This document shows, piece after piece, positions 35,029 through 52,023 of a DNA stretch of 64,000 nucleotides. Numbering within the stretch: the stretch's first letter is position 1; every line of letters starts with the position of its first letter. Source of the stretch: Candidatus Pseudogracilibacillus intestinigallinarum (GTDB lineage Bacteria > Bacillota > Bacilli > Bacillales > Amphibacillaceae); contig DXHX01000169.1 in the NCBI GenBank assembly GCA_019113205.1, positions 1-64,000 on the forward strand, read 5' to 3'. A program made the translations under genes and the position numbers. The notes under the pieces are model-generated. The model saw nothing but the letters and a program-made list of their open reading frames with translations. It ran no database searches and was not told the DNA's origin.

Positions 35029-36366
35029 TTACATATTTAGTTCATATTTTATTTCATTCTTTTCATTTCTTAATATAACATGACGAATTTCTTTTCGCAT
35101 TGTTTTTTTATATTTTCCAAAAACGAGCATTACATTTGGATAAATGGTTCCTTTCACCACGACATTACCTCTATTTCTATTTGTCAGTCGTTTGCGTTGT
35201 TGTATGAAATTAATTTTTTCTTCTGTTAGTTGTATCGAACGTTTCAATCGAAGTAACAAGACACGATCTTCAGAAGATTTCTGTTTCTTTTGCTCCATAT
35301 TATGAATTAAAATATGTAATTTTCTTTTGGTTGCAAGTAATTCATCTTTCTTATCCTCTTTTTGGATAGGACTGTTTCTTTCTCCTAATATTCCGACAAT
35401 TGTTTCTGTATGCATACGATTACCTATATCGTAAGCCATTATTTTTCGGCGAGCAAACACTTCACCACCAATAATATGTCCATGTTCACATATAATATTT
35501 CTCTCCGATTTACATATCGTATGTAGAATTGAGTGTTGTACAATGATGTCTTTACCAGCACTAACATTTGCCTGATTCATATATTTCGTATAAATATTTT
35601 CAACCGCTTCTATTTTTCCTTGCCGTAAACTAACTAACCCATCATAAACATAGACAGATCTTTCTGCTTTTAATACCGCACCTTCTACAATACCATGGAC
35701 AATGATATCCCCTTTAGCTTTTATTGTATAACCTGTTGGAACATCCCCGTGAATAACGATTGTGCCATCGTAATGGATATCTTTTTTAACTTTTAGGTAC
35801 GAGAAGTCTAATTCATACTGTTTTAAGACTGATACAATATTATCTAATACAGAAATACGCCCTTCCTTTAAGGCGACATACGTCTGATTCGTTTCATCGA
35901 ATACAACATTTTCCCCTGTTCTTACAAGAAGTGGCGTACCATGAGAAGCTTGGATTTGTTGACCAAAAACATCTGTCCCATCTATTCCAGTTGTTTCCTT
36001 CACTAATTTCGCAAACGGTTTATCTTCTTTTACAGTCGGAACATGGAGGATTTGTGCAAGGTTTAATGCATCCATTGGTACAATATGTTCCGAATCTGTA
36101 TGAAGGAATTGTAGAGAGGCATTTTTTCCATTTTCCGGATGTTTCCCCTCTGCGATAACAACTGGAAATATTGATTCATCTTTCTTTTGCTCAATTGCTA
36201 TTAATACATTTTCGCATATACCATATGTAATACGATACTTATGCAATAATTGTAGGATGGATTTTTTTGTCCACTTTTCTTTTGAAACCTTTTGTTCCGG
36301 CAATGACAAAATGGCTTGTAGCTTATTTTCTGAAATGTGAATCTTAAAGTCATTATTTACTTTCAT
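35029..36366 (-). CDS. FapA-family (DUF342) protein
   Basis: A 445-residue protein of the FapA/DUF342 family. The N-terminal part (to about 190) is mixed alpha/beta; residues about 195-330 form a repetitive right-handed beta-helix with short repeats (IVIHGDVPTGYTIKAKGDII, IIVQHSILHTI, NIICEHGHIIGGEVFARRKI), and about 340-395 is a lysine-rich coiled coil. I start at the ATG at 36366 because GGAGG lies seven bases upstream; an ATG two codons earlier is too close to it. The family occurs after sigD in many Bacillaceae. In Vibrio a FapA homologue acts in polar localisation and signalling; here the role is unknown. Confidence 0.82.
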   Translation of the reverse strand: MKVNNDFKIHISENKLQAILSLPEQKVSKEKWTKKSILQLLHKYRITYGICENVLIAIEQKKDESIFPVVIAEGKHPENGKNASLQFLHTDSEHIVPMDALNLAQILHVPTVKEDKPFAKLVKETTGIDGTDVFGQQIQASHGTPLLVRTGENVVFDETNQTYVALKEGRISVLDNIVSVLKQYELDFSYLKVKKDIHYDGTIVIHGDVPTGYTIKAKGDIIVHGIVEGAVLKAERSVYVYDGLVSLRQGKIEAVENIYTKYMNQANVSAGKDIIVQHSILHTICKSERNIICEHGHIIGGEVFARRKIMAYDIGNRMHTETIVGILGERNSPIQKEDKKDELLATKRKLHILIHNMEQKKQKSSEDRVLLLRLKRSIQLTEEKINFIQQRKRLTNRNRGNVVVKGTIYPNVMLVFGKYKKTMRKEIRHVILRNEKNEIKYELNM

Positions 36367-36396
36367 ATACATACCTCCATATGGTTAGGAGTGGTA

Positions 36397-37186: not shown

Positions 37187-37687
37187 TTAAATAATTTTCT
37201 CGTCCTTACTTACAGTACGAATATGTAATTCTCCTGTAGACGGATCAAATTCAATTGTTCGTCCATTACTTCCACCTACATCTGAAGCAATAATTGGTAT
37301 TTGATGTTGCTTTAAACGATCAATTACAGCATCAACATTCCGTGGCCCGATACGCATGACATCAGAGGAGCTATTCATTTGAAACATTTGTGCTCCACCA
37401 GCTATTTTAGCCTTTAATAATAATTTTCTCGCATGTTGTGCTAATAACTTTTCAATTAAGATATCAATTGCTGTATCTGCATACTTATATTCATTCATAA
37501 CCGTCTGTTTCGTTACCTGTGAATCCGGCAACATAATATGTGACATACCTGCAATTTGTTCGTTTAAATCATACACAACCACCCCGACACAAGAACCTAA
37601 TCCCGAAGTCCTTATAACATCTGGTGACTTTGCAATATTTAAATCTGCAATTCCAACCTTTATGACCTTTTTAGTTTGTGTCATCAT
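37187..37687 (-). CDS. cheD: Chemoreceptor glutamine deamidase CheD
   Basis: A 166-residue deamidase that converts receptor glutamines to glutamates and interacts with CheC and receptors. Cys33 in GLGSCVGV and His50 in MSHIMLP are the catalytic pair, and GGAQMF and the NVDAV segment are present. I choose the ATG at 37687 (AGGA seven bases upstream), which puts the catalytic cysteine at position 33 as in B. subtilis. The start overlaps the end of cheC, consistent with coupled synthesis of the CheC-CheD pair. Confidence 0.93.
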   Translation of the reverse strand: MMTQTKKVIKVGIADLNIAKSPDVIRTSGLGSCVGVVVYDLNEQIAGMSHIMLPDSQVTKQTVMNEYKYADTAIDILIEKLLAQHARKLLLKAKIAGGAQMFQMNSSSDVMRIGPRNVDAVIDRLKQHQIPIIASDVGGSNGRTIEFDPSTGELHIRTVSKDEKII

Positions 37688-38312
37688 ATTCAATTCCTAA
37701 AGCATGGAAGAATTTTTGGATCGAATCTGGGTCAGGGACTAATAAGAAATGACCTTTAATACTATCTTCCGTTGTCATGCTCTGTATTTTAGTATTAATA
37801 ATAATTGCATGGTCTGTTACAGATTGAAGTTCCAGTAAACCAGTTACTAATGTCGCAGCAGCCATATCAACACTTATATATGGTACACTTGGTAGCATTC
37901 GCAAATTTGTAAAATCTGCTAAGGCTGTTAAGTAAGATCCAGTTAAAATGTTCGCGATTTCTTGTAAAACTGATATGGCCATTTCATTCAATTGATTGTT
38001 AGCATCCATTAGTTTAAGCTGATTCATTTGTGTCATTTGATCAATAAAAAACTGTGCTTCTTCTAACGTTAATATGAAATAAACCGTTCCTGTAATTTCA
38101 CCTTGAATACGGAAAAAGATTGCGACGATTAATTTTTCCGGTCCCCCTATAAACTCCATCATTTCATTAATCGTAACAATATTTACCGAAGGAACTTCCA
38201 TCGTTATTTCTTTTTGAATCATTTGCGACATGGAAGTCGTTGCATTACCTGCCCCGATGTTCCCGATCTCACGCAACACATCTTTTTGTATCGTCGTTAA
38301 TTTCTTAGTCAT
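37671..38312 (-). CDS. cheC: CheY-P phosphatase CheC
   Basis: About 213 residues from the ATG at 38312; an upstream in-frame TTG at 38321 overlaps the cheW stop and cannot be excluded, as no good ribosome site marks either. The two CheC/FliY-type phosphatase motifs are intact: DVLREIGNIGAGNA and EMAISVLQEIANILTGSYL, each with the Glu and Asn that act on phospho-CheY. CheC forms a complex with CheD, linking phosphatase activity to receptor adaptation. The gene is sandwiched between cheW and cheD. Confidence 0.92.
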   Translation of the reverse strand: MTKKLTTIQKDVLREIGNIGAGNATTSMSQMIQKEITMEVPSVNIVTINEMMEFIGGPEKLIVAIFFRIQGEITGTVYFILTLEEAQFFIDQMTQMNQLKLMDANNQLNEMAISVLQEIANILTGSYLTALADFTNLRMLPSVPYISVDMAAATLVTGLLELQSVTDHAIIINTKIQSMTTEDSIKGHFLLVPDPDSIQKFFHALGIEYDDTN

Positions 38313-38317
38313 CAGTA

Positions 38318-38791
38318 TCAACCATTTTTACGTTCACCCGCTTTAAGGGCATCCATTTCCAAAGCATTTTCTAAATCAACTAAAATGAGTAAACGATCTT
38401 CATGTCGAACCACTCCATCAATAAATGGTGCATCGACTGTCGAATCAATCGTTTCAGGAGGTTGCTCAATGAATGTCGGATCAATATCTACTACATCATT
38501 TGCTTCGTCTACGATGACACCGATCGTTAGCTCTTCCATATGCACGACTAAAATTCTTGTATCATTTGTAAAAATGGTTTCCTTCCCATAAAATCGTTGT
38601 TTCAAATCCACAACAGGTGTTACTACTCCTCTTAAATTTATAACACCTATAATAAAATCAACTGTAGATGGAACTCTCGTAATAGGTAATAGTTTCTCTA
38701 TAGATCCAACCATTTGAACGGAAATCGCATATTCACGCTGTTCAATTTGAAAAACAATTAATTTATTTTCTAATAAAGCTTGCTCTGTCAT
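38318..38791 (-). CDS. cheW: Chemotaxis coupling protein CheW
   Basis: A 157-residue SH3-like CheW domain protein that links receptors to CheA. The typical EYAISVQMVGSIEKLLPITRVP, GVINLRGVVTPVVDLKQRF and VDEANDVVDI segments are visible. It follows cheA by 11 bases and its stop overlaps the region of the cheC start. The length matches B. subtilis CheW (156). No receiver domain is attached, so it is not CheV. Confidence 0.95.
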   Translation of the reverse strand: MTEQALLENKLIVFQIEQREYAISVQMVGSIEKLLPITRVPSTVDFIIGVINLRGVVTPVVDLKQRFYGKETIFTNDTRILVVHMEELTIGVIVDEANDVVDIDPTFIEQPPETIDSTVDAPFIDGVVRHEDRLLILVDLENALEMDALKAGERKNG

Positions 38792-38802
38792 GATTGCCCC
38801 TC

Positions 38803-40821
38803 CTATTTCACAAGTGCATTACTATCTATAATTAACGCTACTTCACCGTTCCCTAAAATAGTTGCACCTGAAATCGCATATACACTCGTTAAATAATCAC
38901 CTAAAGATTTTAAAACTACTTCTTGCTGTCCGATAAATGTATCTACGACAAGTCCAGTTAATTTATTTCCTTTTCGAATAATTACAATAGATACATAATC
39001 ACTTTCCTCTTGTTCTTCATTCGGAACTTGGAAAACATTCTCTAAAAAGGTTAATGGTATAACATTTCCACGAAAATCAATCACTTTATTATGGTGTGCA
39101 TCATAAATATCAGACTTCTTCAAAATAGCCGTTTCAATAATAGATGATAATGGAATAGCATATTTTTCTTTTCCAACTTCTACGAGGAGAACGGAAATAA
39201 TGGATAAAGTTAGTGGTAATTGAATAGTAAAAACAGAACCGATACCTTCTTCAGCATCGATGGATATAGCACCACCTAGCGATTCTATGGTTGTTTTAAC
39301 AACGTCTAAACCAACACCACGACCAGACACGTCTGAAATTTCTTCATTCGTAGAAAATCCACTAGCTAAAATAAGTTCATATATTTGTTGATCTGTTAAT
39401 GATTCGGCTTCTTGTGGTGACACAACTCCTTTTTCTAATGCCTTTTGCAGTACTTTCTGTTTATTTATCCCTGCACCATTATCGACGATTTCTACGAATA
39501 CATGGTTTCCACTATGATAAGCTTTAAGTGTAATCTTTCCTTCACGATCTTTTCCTTTTCTTTCTCTTTCCTCCGGCATTTCAATGCCATGATCTATCGC
39601 ATTACGAATTAAATGTACTAATGGATCCCCAATTTCATCAATAACAGTACGATCTAATTCAGTTTCCGCACCGATAATTTCTATCGAGACTTCTTTATTT
39701 AAATCACGAGCTAATTGTCGTATCATTCGTGGGAATCGATTAAATACCGTATCAATTGGGACCATTCGCATCGTTAAAATAATATTTTGTAAATCACTTG
39801 AAACACGAGACATCCTTTCGACCGTTTCTTGTAATTCATTATTTTTTAAATCTAAAGAAATTTGTTCTAAACGACCGCGATCAATTACTAATTCTTCAAA
39901 TAAATTCATTAGTACGTCTAAACGATCAATATTGACACGGATGGTTTTTGCTGGTGCTTGTTTGTTTTGTTGTTTCGGTTTTCCAGATTGTTTTTCTGCC
40001 TTCGGTTGTTCTTCCTTTTCCACGGAAATTTGTTTTTCTTTTGCTCCCGCTTCTAATTGTTCGATTGTAAAATTAGTAATCATAATTTCATCTACTTCAG
40101 ACACTTTTTTCAATTTATCTTCTAATTCAGTAGCTACTTCCTTCGATACGAAAATAACTCGAAACTCTAAATCAAAATTTTCCTCTTCTAATTCATTTGC
40201 AGGAGGATTAGAATAAATGATTTCCCCACTCTTTTCGAGAATTTCAAAAATCATAAAGACACGAGCACCTTTTAATAAACAATCTTCTCGTAATCGTACG
40301 TACAATTCATAGTTATGAAATCCTTTATCTTTTGACTCTTGTAAAATAGTTAATTGGAATTCATCTAACTGGATATTGGTATCTTCAACTACTTCGGCAT
40401 TTACTACATTAGTTGTTCCAGATGATTCATCGGAGAGCCTTTCTCCTTTTTCTAATTTATCTAATTGTGCCATCATTTCGGTTACATCTTTTGTTCCATC
40501 ACCACCATTAGAAACATCTTCAACCATTTCATTTAAGGCATCAACTGTCGTAAATAAAAAGTCCATCATTTCAGTGTACACAGTTAAACGGTCATAACGA
40601 ATACCATCAAAAATATTTTCTAGTTTATGTGTTAATTTTGCTAAGTCTTCAAAACCCATCGTTGCTGACATACCTTTTAATGTATGTGCAGCTCGAAATA
40701 TTTCTTCAATATATTGTTTTTCGGTTGGATTCTTTTCTAATTCAAGCAATTGCTCGTACAGTGTATCTAAATGTTCTGTACTTTCATCAATAAAAATTCC
40801 TATGTATTGCGATGTATCCAT
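38803..40821 (-). CDS. cheA: Chemotaxis histidine kinase CheA
   Basis: A 672-residue kinase with all five domains. P1 (HPt) carries the phosphorylated His46 in AAHTLKGMSATMGF; P2 lies at about 160-265; P3 dimerisation at about 295-360; P4 kinase has N box HLIRNAIDHGIE, G1 DNGAGI and G2 GRGVGLD; P5 is CheW-like at the C-terminus. It phosphorylates CheY, and normally CheB. The CheB next to it lacks the usual phosphoacceptor, see findings. A 128-base gap separates it from cheB, unlike the tight junctions elsewhere in the operon. Confidence 0.96.
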   Translation of the reverse strand: MDTSQYIGIFIDESTEHLDTLYEQLLELEKNPTEKQYIEEIFRAAHTLKGMSATMGFEDLAKLTHKLENIFDGIRYDRLTVYTEMMDFLFTTVDALNEMVEDVSNGGDGTKDVTEMMAQLDKLEKGERLSDESSGTTNVVNAEVVEDTNIQLDEFQLTILQESKDKGFHNYELYVRLREDCLLKGARVFMIFEILEKSGEIIYSNPPANELEEENFDLEFRVIFVSKEVATELEDKLKKVSEVDEIMITNFTIEQLEAGAKEKQISVEKEEQPKAEKQSGKPKQQNKQAPAKTIRVNIDRLDVLMNLFEELVIDRGRLEQISLDLKNNELQETVERMSRVSSDLQNIILTMRMVPIDTVFNRFPRMIRQLARDLNKEVSIEIIGAETELDRTVIDEIGDPLVHLIRNAIDHGIEMPEERERKGKDREGKITLKAYHSGNHVFVEIVDNGAGINKQKVLQKALEKGVVSPQEAESLTDQQIYELILASGFSTNEEISDVSGRGVGLDVVKTTIESLGGAISIDAEEGIGSVFTIQLPLTLSIISVLLVEVGKEKYAIPLSSIIETAILKKSDIYDAHHNKVIDFRGNVIPLTFLENVFQVPNEEQEESDYVSIVIIRKGNKLTGLVVDTFIGQQEVVLKSLGDYLTSVYAISGATILGNGEVALIIDSNALVK

Positions 40822-40949
40822 TTATGTTCCCCCTTTTTGTCAAACGTCTCCATTCCATTATAAATATACAAGTTAATATTTCTTCTACGTGACAAATCAT
40901 CTATTAATCTTTAGACAAAAATGCTATTTTTATAGAAAAATTTGCTCAT
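40822..40949 (-). promoter_or_regulatory. Gap between cheB and cheA with a possible internal promoter
   Basis: This is the largest gap in the motility operon. On the minus strand TATAAT occurs at 40857-40862, 36 bases before the cheA ATG, but no good -35 element lies 16-18 bases above it. A GGGGG ribosome site for cheA is near 40830. I see no SigD-type promoter and no terminator. An internal promoter is possible but weakly supported. Confidence 0.25.
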
Positions 40950-42008
40950 TTATACAATATATTTCAAAATCGTTTGACTAACTAGTTCAATTGGCACAAC
41001 TTCTGTAGCAAAATTCGTTGCAATTGCTGCACTAGGCATTCCATTTACAACGACCGTATCTTTCGCTTCCACAATAACAGTAGTGTGTACGTCATATTGT
41101 TTCATTCGTTTAATACCTGCTGCACCATCTTTTCCCATTCCTGTTAAAATAACAGCTACTTTATTCACACTCGTCAACAATGCGAGCGATTGAAATAAAA
41201 CATCTACAGACGGGCGATGTGGGCTATCATGATGTTCTTGATGAATATGAAAACAAAATGTTCGTTGTTTTTTTCGTACTTCCATATGATAGTTACCCGG
41301 AGCAATATAGACGATTCCTTTTTCTAACGTCTCTAAATGTTCAGCTTCTTTTACATGAATTTCATTATGAATTCGATTTAATCGATCAGCTAACGATTTT
41401 GTAAATTTTTCTGGCATATGTTGCACAATTAAAATTGGTACATTCAATTTTGGGGGCAGATTACGTATGACAACTTCTAACGCACGTGGACCACCTGTCG
41501 ATGTACCGATTGCAATGAGTGTTTGAATATTTGTCTTATCCATCGTTGTATGCACATTTTCAATCATAGGCTGTACAATCTGTTTTTCTTGTTTGAACGG
41601 CTCTTTTTCCCGACTCACTTTTCTTCTTCTTAATTTCTCATATCTGTATACTCGTTTCATCTTCGTTTGCAATAGAGTGCTATCTACTTCTTCAAATGGA
41701 TGGATATTGACATATTGAGCAATACCTAATTGAATAGCATAAACGATTCTTTTCGTTTCATATATATCATCATTTGCTATTAATATGGTTCTCGTCCCAT
41801 GTTGTTCAATAACCTTTTGCAATAATTCGTCTTTTACATCAATAGAAAGTAAAATTATATCTGGCGTGTTTGAAGTTAATGCTTCTAATACAGACGTTTC
41901 ATTCATGTTCATAAATGAATGAATATTTGCCCACGTCTCTACCGCTTGTTTTACATTCATATCTTTTTTGTCATTCGTACCTATGAGACTAACGGTAAGT
42001 TTATCCAT
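40950..42008 (-). CDS. cheB: Chemoreceptor methylesterase CheB with degenerate receiver domain
   Basis: A 352-residue protein. The C-terminal methylesterase (about 162-352) is intact, with Ser170 in GTSTGGP, His197 in VQHMP and Asp294 in GMGKDGA as the catalytic triad. The N-terminal 120 residues have the length and PDIILLS pattern of a receiver domain, but the acidic pair normally in VVDDS is replaced by LIGTN, the phospho-aspartate position by Ser55, and the conserved lysine by a NIHPFEE segment. Phosphorylation by CheA in the usual way therefore looks impossible. It lies between flhG and cheA as in B. subtilis. Confidence 0.88.
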   Translation of the reverse strand: MDKLTVSLIGTNDKKDMNVKQAVETWANIHSFMNMNETSVLEALTSNTPDIILLSIDVKDELLQKVIEQHGTRTILIANDDIYETKRIVYAIQLGIAQYVNIHPFEEVDSTLLQTKMKRVYRYEKLRRRKVSREKEPFKQEKQIVQPMIENVHTTMDKTNIQTLIAIGTSTGGPRALEVVIRNLPPKLNVPILIVQHMPEKFTKSLADRLNRIHNEIHVKEAEHLETLEKGIVYIAPGNYHMEVRKKQRTFCFHIHQEHHDSPHRPSVDVLFQSLALLTSVNKVAVILTGMGKDGAAGIKRMKQYDVHTTVIVEAKDTVVVNGMPSAAIATNFATEVVPIELVSQTILKYIV

Positions 42009-49489: not shown

Positions 49490-49852
49490 TTATGCTAATG
49501 CTTTCGAAACAGCTTCAATCACTCGATCAGCTTGAAAAGGTTTTACGATAAAATCTTTTGCCCCGGCTTGAATAGCATCAATTACCATCGCTTGTTGCCC
49601 CATTGCGGAACACATAATAATTGTAGCGCTCGGATCTATTTCTTTAATTTCCTTTAAAGCTTGAATGCCATCTTTTTCAGGCATTGTAATGTCCATTGTC
49701 ACTAAATCTGGAGTTAATTCTTTATATTTTTCTACTGCCACACTACCATTTTCAGCTTCACCTACAACGTTATAACCATTCTTCTCTAAAATATCTTTAA
49801 TCATCATTCTCATAAATGCTGCATCATCTACAATTAATACTTTTTGTGCCAT
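49490..49852 (-). CDS. cheY: Chemotaxis response regulator CheY
   Basis: A 120-residue single-domain receiver, the same length as B. subtilis CheY. All functional residues are present: Asp9-Asp10 in VDDA, phospho-acceptor Asp54 in TMDITMP, Ser82/Ala83 in CSAM and Lys104 in VKPF. I choose the ATG at 49852, eight bases after GGTGG; an earlier GTG lies inside that site. Phospho-CheY acts on FliM and FliY in the switch. It contrasts with the degenerate receiver of CheB in the same operon. Confidence 0.97.
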   Translation of the reverse strand: MAQKVLIVDDAAFMRMMIKDILEKNGYNVVGEAENGSVAVEKYKELTPDLVTMDITMPEKDGIQALKEIKEIDPSATIIMCSAMGQQAMVIDAIQAGAKDFIVKPFQADRVIEAVSKALA

Positions 49853-49873
49853 TATTATTTCCACCTTTATCCA

Positions 49874-51031
49874 TTAATTTAATTTCATTAAACGATCTTT
49901 TGGACTGACAATATCTGTCACTCTTACACCAAAGTTCTCATCAATTACAACGACTTCTCCTTTAGCGATTAATTTATTATTCACTAAAACATCTACAGGC
50001 TCACCTGCCAGTTTATCAAGTTCAATAATTGCACCTTGAGATAACTCTAAAATATCCTCTACTGTTTGCTTTGTTCTTCCTAATTCAACTGTTACCGAAA
50101 GAGGTACATCTAAAAGCATATCTAAATTTCGTTTATTCGTTTGATTAAGAGGTGTTGGTTCAAATGCTTCAAACGCTGCATGTTGAATCGTTGAGTCAGG
50201 TGCAATATGGTTACCAATATGTTGAGGTTCCGATTGAGTCGGTGTCGGCTGCTCCATTTGTGCTGTTTCAACTTCTGTTTGTGTGACGCTTATGTCACTT
50301 TGTTGAGCAATATTCATGTCTTTCATAGTTGTCTCTTGATTAATTGGCTCTTCTGTAGGTTCAAGTAATTGATTGACTAAATCTTTTGCAAAATCTAGTG
50401 GTATCAATTGAAAAATATTCGAATCAATTAAGTCACCAATTTTTAAATTAAAAGCAACCCGGACTAATACATCTTCGTCACTACCTTTTGCCACTTCCTC
50501 TAGTTTATCAATGTCTTTATAATCAACTTGTGGTGGTGAGATATCTACACGTTTATTAAATACTGTAGACATGCTCGTTGCTGAAGATCCCATCATTTGA
50601 TTCATTGCTTCTTGTACTGCACTTAATTCAATTTCCGATAGCTCTTCATTTGGTTGTAAGCCATTACCACCAAGCATAATATCTGAAATAATTGCGGCAT
50701 CTTTCGCTTTCATTAAAAAGATGTTTTCCCCATCAAAACCATCACAATAATCTACTTGTAAACTTACGTGTTCATAGGGAAATTCCTCTTTAATCCCTGT
50801 CTTCTTTACAAACGAAACAGTCGGTGTCGTAATATCCACTTTTTGATTCAATAAAGTCGACAATGTCGTTGCTGAACTTCCAAAAGAAATATTACCAATT
50901 TCCCCCAGTGCATCCATTTCAAGAGGAGTTAAATATGTATTACTCTCATCTTCATATGTGATCTCCGAAGTACTATCATCTGTTACGTTTAATAATGCAT
51001 CAATTTCTTCTTGTGTTAATTTGTTATCCAT
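49874..51031 (-). CDS. fliY: Flagellar switch protein and CheY-P phosphatase FliY
   Basis: A 385-residue switch component combining a CheC-like phosphatase and a FliN domain. The N-terminus LTQEEIDALLNVTDD is a CheY-P-binding peptide. Two phosphatase motifs follow (LGEIGNISFGSSAT at about 40-52 and EIELSAVQEAMNQMMGSSA), then a low-complexity linker (about 225-290) and the C-terminal FliN domain (LDMLLDVPLSVTVELGRTKQ). The ATG at 51031 has GGAGGAG upstream and overlaps the fliM stop; a GTG one codon earlier is possible. Confidence 0.94.
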   Translation of the reverse strand: MDNKLTQEEIDALLNVTDDSTSEITYEDESNTYLTPLEMDALGEIGNISFGSSATTLSTLLNQKVDITTPTVSFVKKTGIKEEFPYEHVSLQVDYCDGFDGENIFLMKAKDAAIISDIMLGGNGLQPNEELSEIELSAVQEAMNQMMGSSATSMSTVFNKRVDISPPQVDYKDIDKLEEVAKGSDEDVLVRVAFNLKIGDLIDSNIFQLIPLDFAKDLVNQLLEPTEEPINQETTMKDMNIAQQSDISVTQTEVETAQMEQPTPTQSEPQHIGNHIAPDSTIQHAAFEAFEPTPLNQTNKRNLDMLLDVPLSVTVELGRTKQTVEDILELSQGAIIELDKLAGEPVDVLVNNKLIAKGEVVVIDENFGVRVTDIVSPKDRLMKLN

Positions 51032-52023
51032 CACGATAAACTCCTCCTTTCTATATGATCCATCACTTGTACCGCTACTTTTTTATGTACAGTTCCAACT
51101 TGAACATGCATCTTTGGCTCTCCATTCACTTCTAATGTTAACGGGTCTTGAATCTTTTGATTTAAACTAATGATATCCTCTGTCGATAATTGTAATAACT
51201 CATTCACCGTAATATTTGATTGACCTAAAATAACTTTTGCCTCTAATTCTACTTTTTCCATATGTTTCGATAAAATGGCATATTTTTCAGGGTCACGTTC
51301 CTTTGTTGCGGACTCCATCCAATAGTGAGCAGATAATTTAGGTATAATTGGCTCTAACACTATATGTGGAATACAAATATTAATCATTCCTGATACATCG
51401 CCAATTTGTGTATTAAAGGAAACGACTACTACTGTTTCATTTGGCGAAACCATTTGTAAAAATTGTGGATTCACTTCAAATTCATCCAACATTGGGTCGA
51501 TTTCTACGATTGTTGACCAAGCTTCTTGAATATTTACAACAGCTTTTTCGAACATCTGTGTCATTATAGTCGTCTCGATTTCCGTTAAACTCTCTGGCTG
51601 CACATCACTATTTCCTTTTCCGCCTAACAAACGATCCATCATACTGTAAGCAATATTTGGATTCACTTCCATCAAAATTTTACCTTCCAATGGTTCCATA
51701 CTAATCACATTTAAAATTGTCATCTTCGGTATGGAACGGATAAATTCTTCATACGGAATTTGATCTACAGAGGCAACAGAAATATTTACATATGTCCTTA
51801 ATTGGCCAGAAAAAAATGTCGTTAACAGCCTTGCATAATTTTCATGGATTCGTGATATACTTCGAATTTGATCTTTCGAAAAACGCAATGCACGCTTAAA
51901 ATCATATACTTTTACTTTTTTATCTTCTTCTTCTTTCTTTAATTCTTCTGCATCCATTTCCCCAGATGAAATAGCTGATAATAAAGCATCTATTTCTGTC
52001 TGTGACAAAATTTCTTCAGACAA
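51031..52023 (-). CDS. fliM: Flagellar switch protein FliM
   Basis: A 330-residue rotor switch protein. The CheY-P-binding peptide SEEILSQTEIDALLSAI forms the N-terminus, the CheC-like middle domain runs from about 45 to 230 (with the GMINICIPHIVLEPI segment), and the FliN-like domain closes the protein. The length matches B. subtilis FliM (332). It follows fliL and overlaps fliY by the stop codon region. Confidence 0.96.
   Translation of the reverse strand: MSEEILSQTEIDALLSAISSGEMDAEELKKEEEDKKVKVYDFKRALRFSKDQIRSISRIHENYARLLTTFFSGQLRTYVNISVASVDQIPYEEFIRSIPKMTILNVISMEPLEGKILMEVNPNIAYSMMDRLLGGKGNSDVQPESLTEIETTIMTQMFEKAVVNIQEAWSTIVEIDPMLDEFEVNPQFLQMVSPNETVVVVSFNTQIGDVSGMINICIPHIVLEPIIPKLSAHYWMESATKERDPEKYAILSKHMEKVELEAKVILGQSNITVNELLQLSTEDIISLNQKIQDPLTLEVNGEPKMHVQVGTVHKKVAVQVMDHIERRSLS

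Follow-up and report, generated by a model that had tools for sequence, protein, structure and literature searches.

A putative pseudo-receiver on the chemoreceptor methylesterase CheB of Candidatus Pseudogracilibacillus intestinigallinarum and graded receiver decay among its relatives

The phosphorylation of CheB by CheA is the textbook negative feedback of chemotaxis. In CheB of Salmonella, the active site is blocked by the receiver as long as the latter is unphosphorylated (1A2O); phosphorylation opens the enzyme, and deletion of the regulatory domain activates it partly (PMC8609364). With the E. coli variants CheBc and CheB-D56E adaptation remains precise, the main loss being that of noise suppression (PMC5809149). 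For B. subtilis, the role of CheB phosphorylation has been called unknown, phosphorylation has been stated to be necessary for CheB activity, and the same source notes that CheB of C. jejuni is devoid of the domain (PMC340952); in the Campylobacterota, the F3 class is marked by a CheB without a receiver (PMC9321776). Pseudo-receivers have been recognised as a class, and how they are controlled is mostly unexplained (PMC12632262). The term CheB is absent from the main text of this review and of a 2015 survey (PMC4395418), and a literature search of open-access full text returned no report of a pseudo-receiver CheB.

The CheB described here is encoded in a window of 64,000 nucleotides, i. e. the whole stretch analysed, which covers nearly all of a 64,703-base contig from a genome of 2.47 Mb. 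Its reading frame, placed correctly by a first-pass annotation that gave no strand, lies on the minus strand, starts with ATG and is open over its whole length. A genome-wide search found this single copy only, so that the presence of a further, canonical CheB was dismissed. The gene and its parts are as follows.

40950-42008, minus strand: cheB, a 352-aa chemoreceptor methylesterase with a putative pseudo-receiver N-terminus (open reading frame, translation, PF01339)
41622-42008, minus strand: putative pseudo-receiver domain, residues 1-129, with a (βα)5 fold (AlphaFold secondary structure, pLDDT, fold match, key-residue census)
41529-41621, minus strand: interdomain linker, residues 130-160 (low confidence, pLDDT below 50 over most of 132-154)
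40953-41528, minus strand: methylesterase domain, residues 161-352, with the triad Ser170/His197/Asp294 (PF01339, invariant columns, 3sft)

In its domain order, catalytic domain, triad, operon position and N-terminal receiver fold, the protein is like the canonical two-domain CheBs (Salmonella 1A2O, P. atrosepticum 6YMZ and the B. subtilis type), and its database relatives include CheBs of Salirhabdus, Alkalibacillus, Virgibacillus and Halobacillus. The Ser-His-Asp catalytic domain and the place in the che operon beside cheA identify it as a CheB. Pfam detects CheB_methylest (PF01339) with 196.5 bits over residues 165-347, the catalytic domain of the AlphaFold model matches 3sft (Z 32.2, rmsd 1.4 Å over 189 residues), and Ser170, His197 and Asp294 are invariant in an alignment of 46 CheB sequences, so that the triad is indeed intact, as first proposed. 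It is quite improbable that this CheB is becoming a pseudogene, with receptors no longer demethylated and adaptation carried by CheC and CheD alone. Some other genomes of the family are without a detectable CheB and the genome is small (2.47 Mb), yet the catalytic domain retains 57% identity to the family consensus with an invariant triad and invariant signature residues, the reading frame is uninterrupted, and a CheR is encoded, albeit divided by a contig end.

Unlike the canonical enzymes, this CheB has lost the five phosphorylation residues of the receiver, shares 12.6% receiver identity with the consensus and is not predicted to adopt the closed arrangement. Gly10 and Thr11 stand in for the Asp-Asp pair and Ser55 for the phospho-Asp, while Ala78 occupies the Ser/Thr position and Ile102 or His103 the Lys position. 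The first-pass annotation had listed the acidic pair, the phospho-Asp and the Lys as missing; the loss is real and goes beyond these three features, as all five residues are gone. Hence, the residue set of a canonical receiver (acidic pair, phospho-Asp, Ser/Thr, Lys) is absent, and the residue loss is that of a pseudo-receiver as defined in PMC12632262. Asp57 as a shifted phospho-acceptor was ruled out: the alignment is ungapped from Pro49-Asp50, the Pro-Asp shared with canonical relatives before β3, and Ser55 aligns with their Asp56. Because β3 ends at residue 55 here and at residue 56 (= Asp56) in the canonical relative G144, Ser55 is in register and Asp57 lies two residues further (AlphaFold models, both built from the same 46 sequences). 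An Asp57 and an acidic pair in the normal pocket, named at the outset as the arrangement that would overturn the proposal, were thus looked for; Ser55 was found at the phosphorylation position, with neither acidic pair nor Lys.

The fold of the domain is nevertheless predicted to be that of a receiver. The AlphaFold model, which is confident here, shows a (βα)5 arrangement with block pLDDT values of 71-94, and its receiver-fold matches reach Z scores of about 15-16, for instance 15.7 with the YycF receiver 3f6p (rmsd 2.2 Å over 115 residues). The hydrophobic core is kept at 29 of 38 core positions versus 19 of 75 elsewhere (Fisher p=2.7e-7), and only 5 of 38 positions that are conserved to at least 95% in canonical CheBs are retained. 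The fold thus appears to be under some constraint and the active site under none. Pfam Response_reg (PF00072) has no match in the receiver domain at E<=1. The domain is called receiver-like here, since it is the fold, the position and the intermediates that identify it as a receiver, and not PF00072; for the same reason a PF00072-based census would miss it. The open frame, the fold and the core pattern rule out a sequencing error or frameshift; together with congeners whose receivers are partly decayed, the frame and the core bear out the earlier view that poor sequence is not the cause, and also speak against chance.

The decay is specific to this domain. Among the 125 canonical CheBs of the host family, conservation is stronger in the receiver than in the catalytic domain: the receiver has 73.7% identity to the family consensus (minimum 61%) against the 12.6% found here, whereas the catalytic domain is close to its canonical counterparts (56.8% versus 65.0%). 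Likewise, the terminal branch leading to this CheB has a length of 4.44 when the tree is built from receivers and of 0.56 when it is built from catalytic domains (FastTree). A profile of the canonical family receivers still scores it with 11.6 bits (best of 200 shuffles, 6.7), and scores those of two congeners, G001 and G002, with 75 and 45 bits, respectively. These intermediates favour decay and support the view that the receiver decayed in place and was not swapped for an unrelated domain.

CheB was found in 138 of the 159 genomes of the host family, and 134 of these proteins plus the one described here make up a census of 135; the CheBs of G009, G028 and G035, which align over their full length, lie outside it. 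The census comprises 125 canonical CheBs (two of which carry Ala at the Ser/Thr position), one split CheB (G031) and nine that are altered or receiver-less. All CheBs found in the host genus, which is monophyletic in a FastTree phylogeny of che and flagellar proteins, are altered: G001 has Asp-Gln in place of Asp-Asp and has thus lost one acidic residue, G002 has lost the acidic pair and the Lys, and G004 has lost the whole receiver with cheA still adjacent. Outside the genus, the acidic pair has become Ile-His in G026 and G027 (genus g14), the first Asp and the Lys are lost in G156, and the receivers of G052 and G155 are deleted. Of the 135, the CheB described here alone has lost the phospho-Asp without losing the domain. 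It is not receiver-less, as the domain is present as a fold; the receiver-less proteins are those of G004, G052 and G155, which have the architecture of the Campylobacterota F3 CheB. In these three the catalytic domain starts almost directly after flhG, and no receiver remnant was found near cheB. As the cases outside the host genus occur in separate genera among canonical relatives, receiver alteration or deletion likely arose at least four times independently in the family. The alignment with relatives that had been recommended thus not only equates Ser55 with the canonical Asp56 but also reveals a genus-wide and recurrent erosion that the first-pass annotation had not seen.

Across the class, 20 CheBs picked for short frames or for alignment mainly over the catalytic domain were checked, and many receiver-less CheBs can be ruled out: a canonical receiver is present in 16, separated by a long linker. 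The remaining four are two split genes, one apparently receiver-less CheB (G446) and one that is degenerate and frame-broken (G190). In G446, from another family of the same order, the cheB frame is short (247 aa), and the stretch read contains no receiver (L270); in G190, from another family of the class, Asn stands at the phospho-Asp position and the frame is broken at β1 (L280).

The kept fold and hydrophobic core mean that the domain may still have a job. It could have been repurposed, i. e. it may have lost phosphorylation and come to control the esterase in response to another ligand or a protein partner. Such regulation is known for pseudo-receivers, for example ShkA with c-di-GMP and JadR1 with jadomycin B (PMC12632262), and the fold and core have been kept here although relatives tolerate simple deletion. 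Yet no new motif is common to the eroded receivers of the genus, whose pairwise identity is 14-31% (54-59% for the catalytic domains). G004 has deleted this region altogether, and no pocket or ligand candidate was identified. All of this makes repurposing rather unlikely. It is likewise unlikely that the domain serves as a docking module or sensor which works without phosphorylation and ties receptor demethylation to some other signal; if it did, chemotactic adaptation would have an input other than CheA.

We regard as the probable explanation, judging from sequences and models, that this CheB is a working methylesterase whose receiver became a pseudo-receiver under relaxed selection and which no longer depends on phosphorylation by CheA. 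With the acidic pair, the phospho-acceptor and the Lys missing, the CheA-to-CheB feedback would be lost; this part of the first-pass annotation is supported by the missing residues together with the structure-based register. As to the consequence, that annotation had left a choice between constitutive activity and control by another ligand. The former appears better supported, because the eroded receivers diverge, a congener deleted the domain and the closed arrangement is not predicted, while nothing points to the latter. In detail, the model of the canonical relative G144 agrees with the closed arrangement of 1A2O to 2.3 Å over 325 residues (pTM 0.86), whereas the model of the present CheB deviates by 8.1 Å over 313 residues (pTM 0.66). 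This difference may, however, stem from a weak coevolution signal in the decayed protein rather than from a real opening.

Further genes of the chemotaxis pathway lie in the same window. The minus-strand fla/che order is flhB-flhA-flhF-flhG-cheB-cheA-cheW-cheC-cheD-sigD, with cheY and a fliY-like gene upstream:

38803-40821, minus strand: cheA, with P1 (His46), P2, P3, P4 (N, G1 and G2 boxes) and P5 intact (Pfam, motifs, per-domain identity)
38318-38791, minus strand: cheW (PF01584, 103 bits)
37671-38321, minus strand: cheC (PF04509)
37187-37693, minus strand: cheD (PF03975, 126 bits)
49490-49864, minus strand: cheY, with the motifs VDDAA, TMDITMP, MCSAM and FIVKPF (PF00072, 115 bits)
49874-51034, minus strand: fliY-like motor switch/CheC-type protein (CheC and FliMN_C domains)

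CheY, with 115 bits for Response_reg and the above motifs, keeps every canonical receiver residue, just as had been asserted. The gap between cheB and cheA (40822-40949) spans 128 bases, whereas several relatives have no more than some tens of bases there; a pattern scan of its minus strand gave no promoter-like match. Downstream of sigD, at 35029-36372, the window has a gene for FapA (DUF342; FapA domains of 145 and 105 bits), at the position of swrB in B. subtilis. Elsewhere in the genome, cheR is present but split over two contig ends (L117 and L118; contigs C109 and C129 of G000), with about 15 codons missing. A disruption by insertion was rejected, as the contig ends look like an assembly gap, on whose two sides ndk and the shikimate-pathway gene are conserved. 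The search for MCP signalling domains gave seven above the cut-off. CheV was not found in G000, an assembly of 175 contigs in which a gap is possible, and is present in four congeners; its loss has no clear link to the receiver, as the canonical relative G138 is also without CheV. On sequence, the network would thus combine a functional kinase and regulator with a methyltransferase and a CheC/CheD branch.

The intact CheA rules out its loss as the cause of receiver decay in the host. It may be the cause in G052, whose che operon (L144, 3568-8999) holds the receiver-deleted cheB, cheW, cheC and cheD but no cheA; no CheA was found in the whole genome, which is 99% complete, while CheR is kept. 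G052 is a methylation system without its kinase. G155 (L150), G156 (L151) and G098 (L154) also have no cheA between cheB and cheW; the one CheA of each genome is encoded on a different contig, accompanied by a cheW of its own, and CheA is likewise apart from CheB in many genomes of g25.

CheA might still regulate CheB without phosphorylation if the pseudo-receiver bound the P2 domain of CheA or the arrays and thereby localised the enzyme. P2 is kept (85 bits in Pfam, with no sign of decay in motifs or per-domain identity), as is the receiver fold, and α4, which carries the usual partner face of receivers, keeps a few family residues. However, α5 and β5, which belong to this face too, have lost every consensus residue, and CheY requires P2 anyway. 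We judge this docking to be very improbable.

For the preferred reading, i. e. a phosphorylation-independent esterase, the following course of events is conceivable. The genus ancestor probably already had relaxed constraint on the receiver, which one congener has since deleted. In the present CheB, phosphorylation by CheA-P would no longer be possible, and the domains would no longer adopt the closed inhibitory arrangement, their contact being weakened or gone. The demethylation rate would then be set by the amount of CheB and the receptor conformation rather than by CheA activity, and adaptation would proceed via CheR/CheB turnover and the CheC-CheD-CheY-P loop. The CheC/CheD network may tolerate the loss, in part because CheBc and CheB-D56E of E. 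coli adapt precisely. On the other hand, a full-length CheB that cannot be phosphorylated could have weak activity, as phosphorylation has been called necessary in B. subtilis (PMC340952).

Compared to known systems, this CheB resembles that of C. jejuni (Campylobacterota F3) as a natural CheB outside receiver phosphorylation control (PMC340952, PMC9321776). Unlike in the F3 class, it keeps a folded receiver-like domain, its CheA has no additional receiver (Pfam domains), and the network has CheC and CheD. It is like the pseudo-receiver and aspartate-less receiver proteins (PsR, ALR) in having a receiver fold without the active-site residues (PMC12632262, PMC4395418), and unlike them in its methylesterase output and in a gene that adjoins an intact cheA instead of being an orphan; nor can it be identified computationally via PF00072, as PsR and ALR proteins are. 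With CheB-D56E and CheBc it shares the putative absence of phosphorylation feedback, under which precise adaptation is kept in E. coli (PMC5809149); those variants are engineered, whereas the present one would be a natural state in a Bacillus-type network.

Taken together, within one family the receiver switch of CheB was lost or eroded in several lineages, while the esterase and mostly also CheA stayed. Receiver-less CheBs and pseudo-receivers as such were known already; a folded pseudo-receiver on a CheB beside an intact cheA, which the standard receiver model does not detect, is new, as is a graded decay series within one family that passes from one residue (G001) via several (G002, g14, G156) and all (the present CheB) to deletion of the domain (G004, G052, G155). 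This series offers matched natural pairs for testing the role of the feedback in a CheC/CheD-type network, and the CheB described here is relevant to the unsolved question of what CheB phosphorylation does in Bacillus-type chemotaxis. Given the repeated decay and deletion in relatives, our findings suggest that the CheA-CheB feedback loop is dispensable in this type of chemotaxis.
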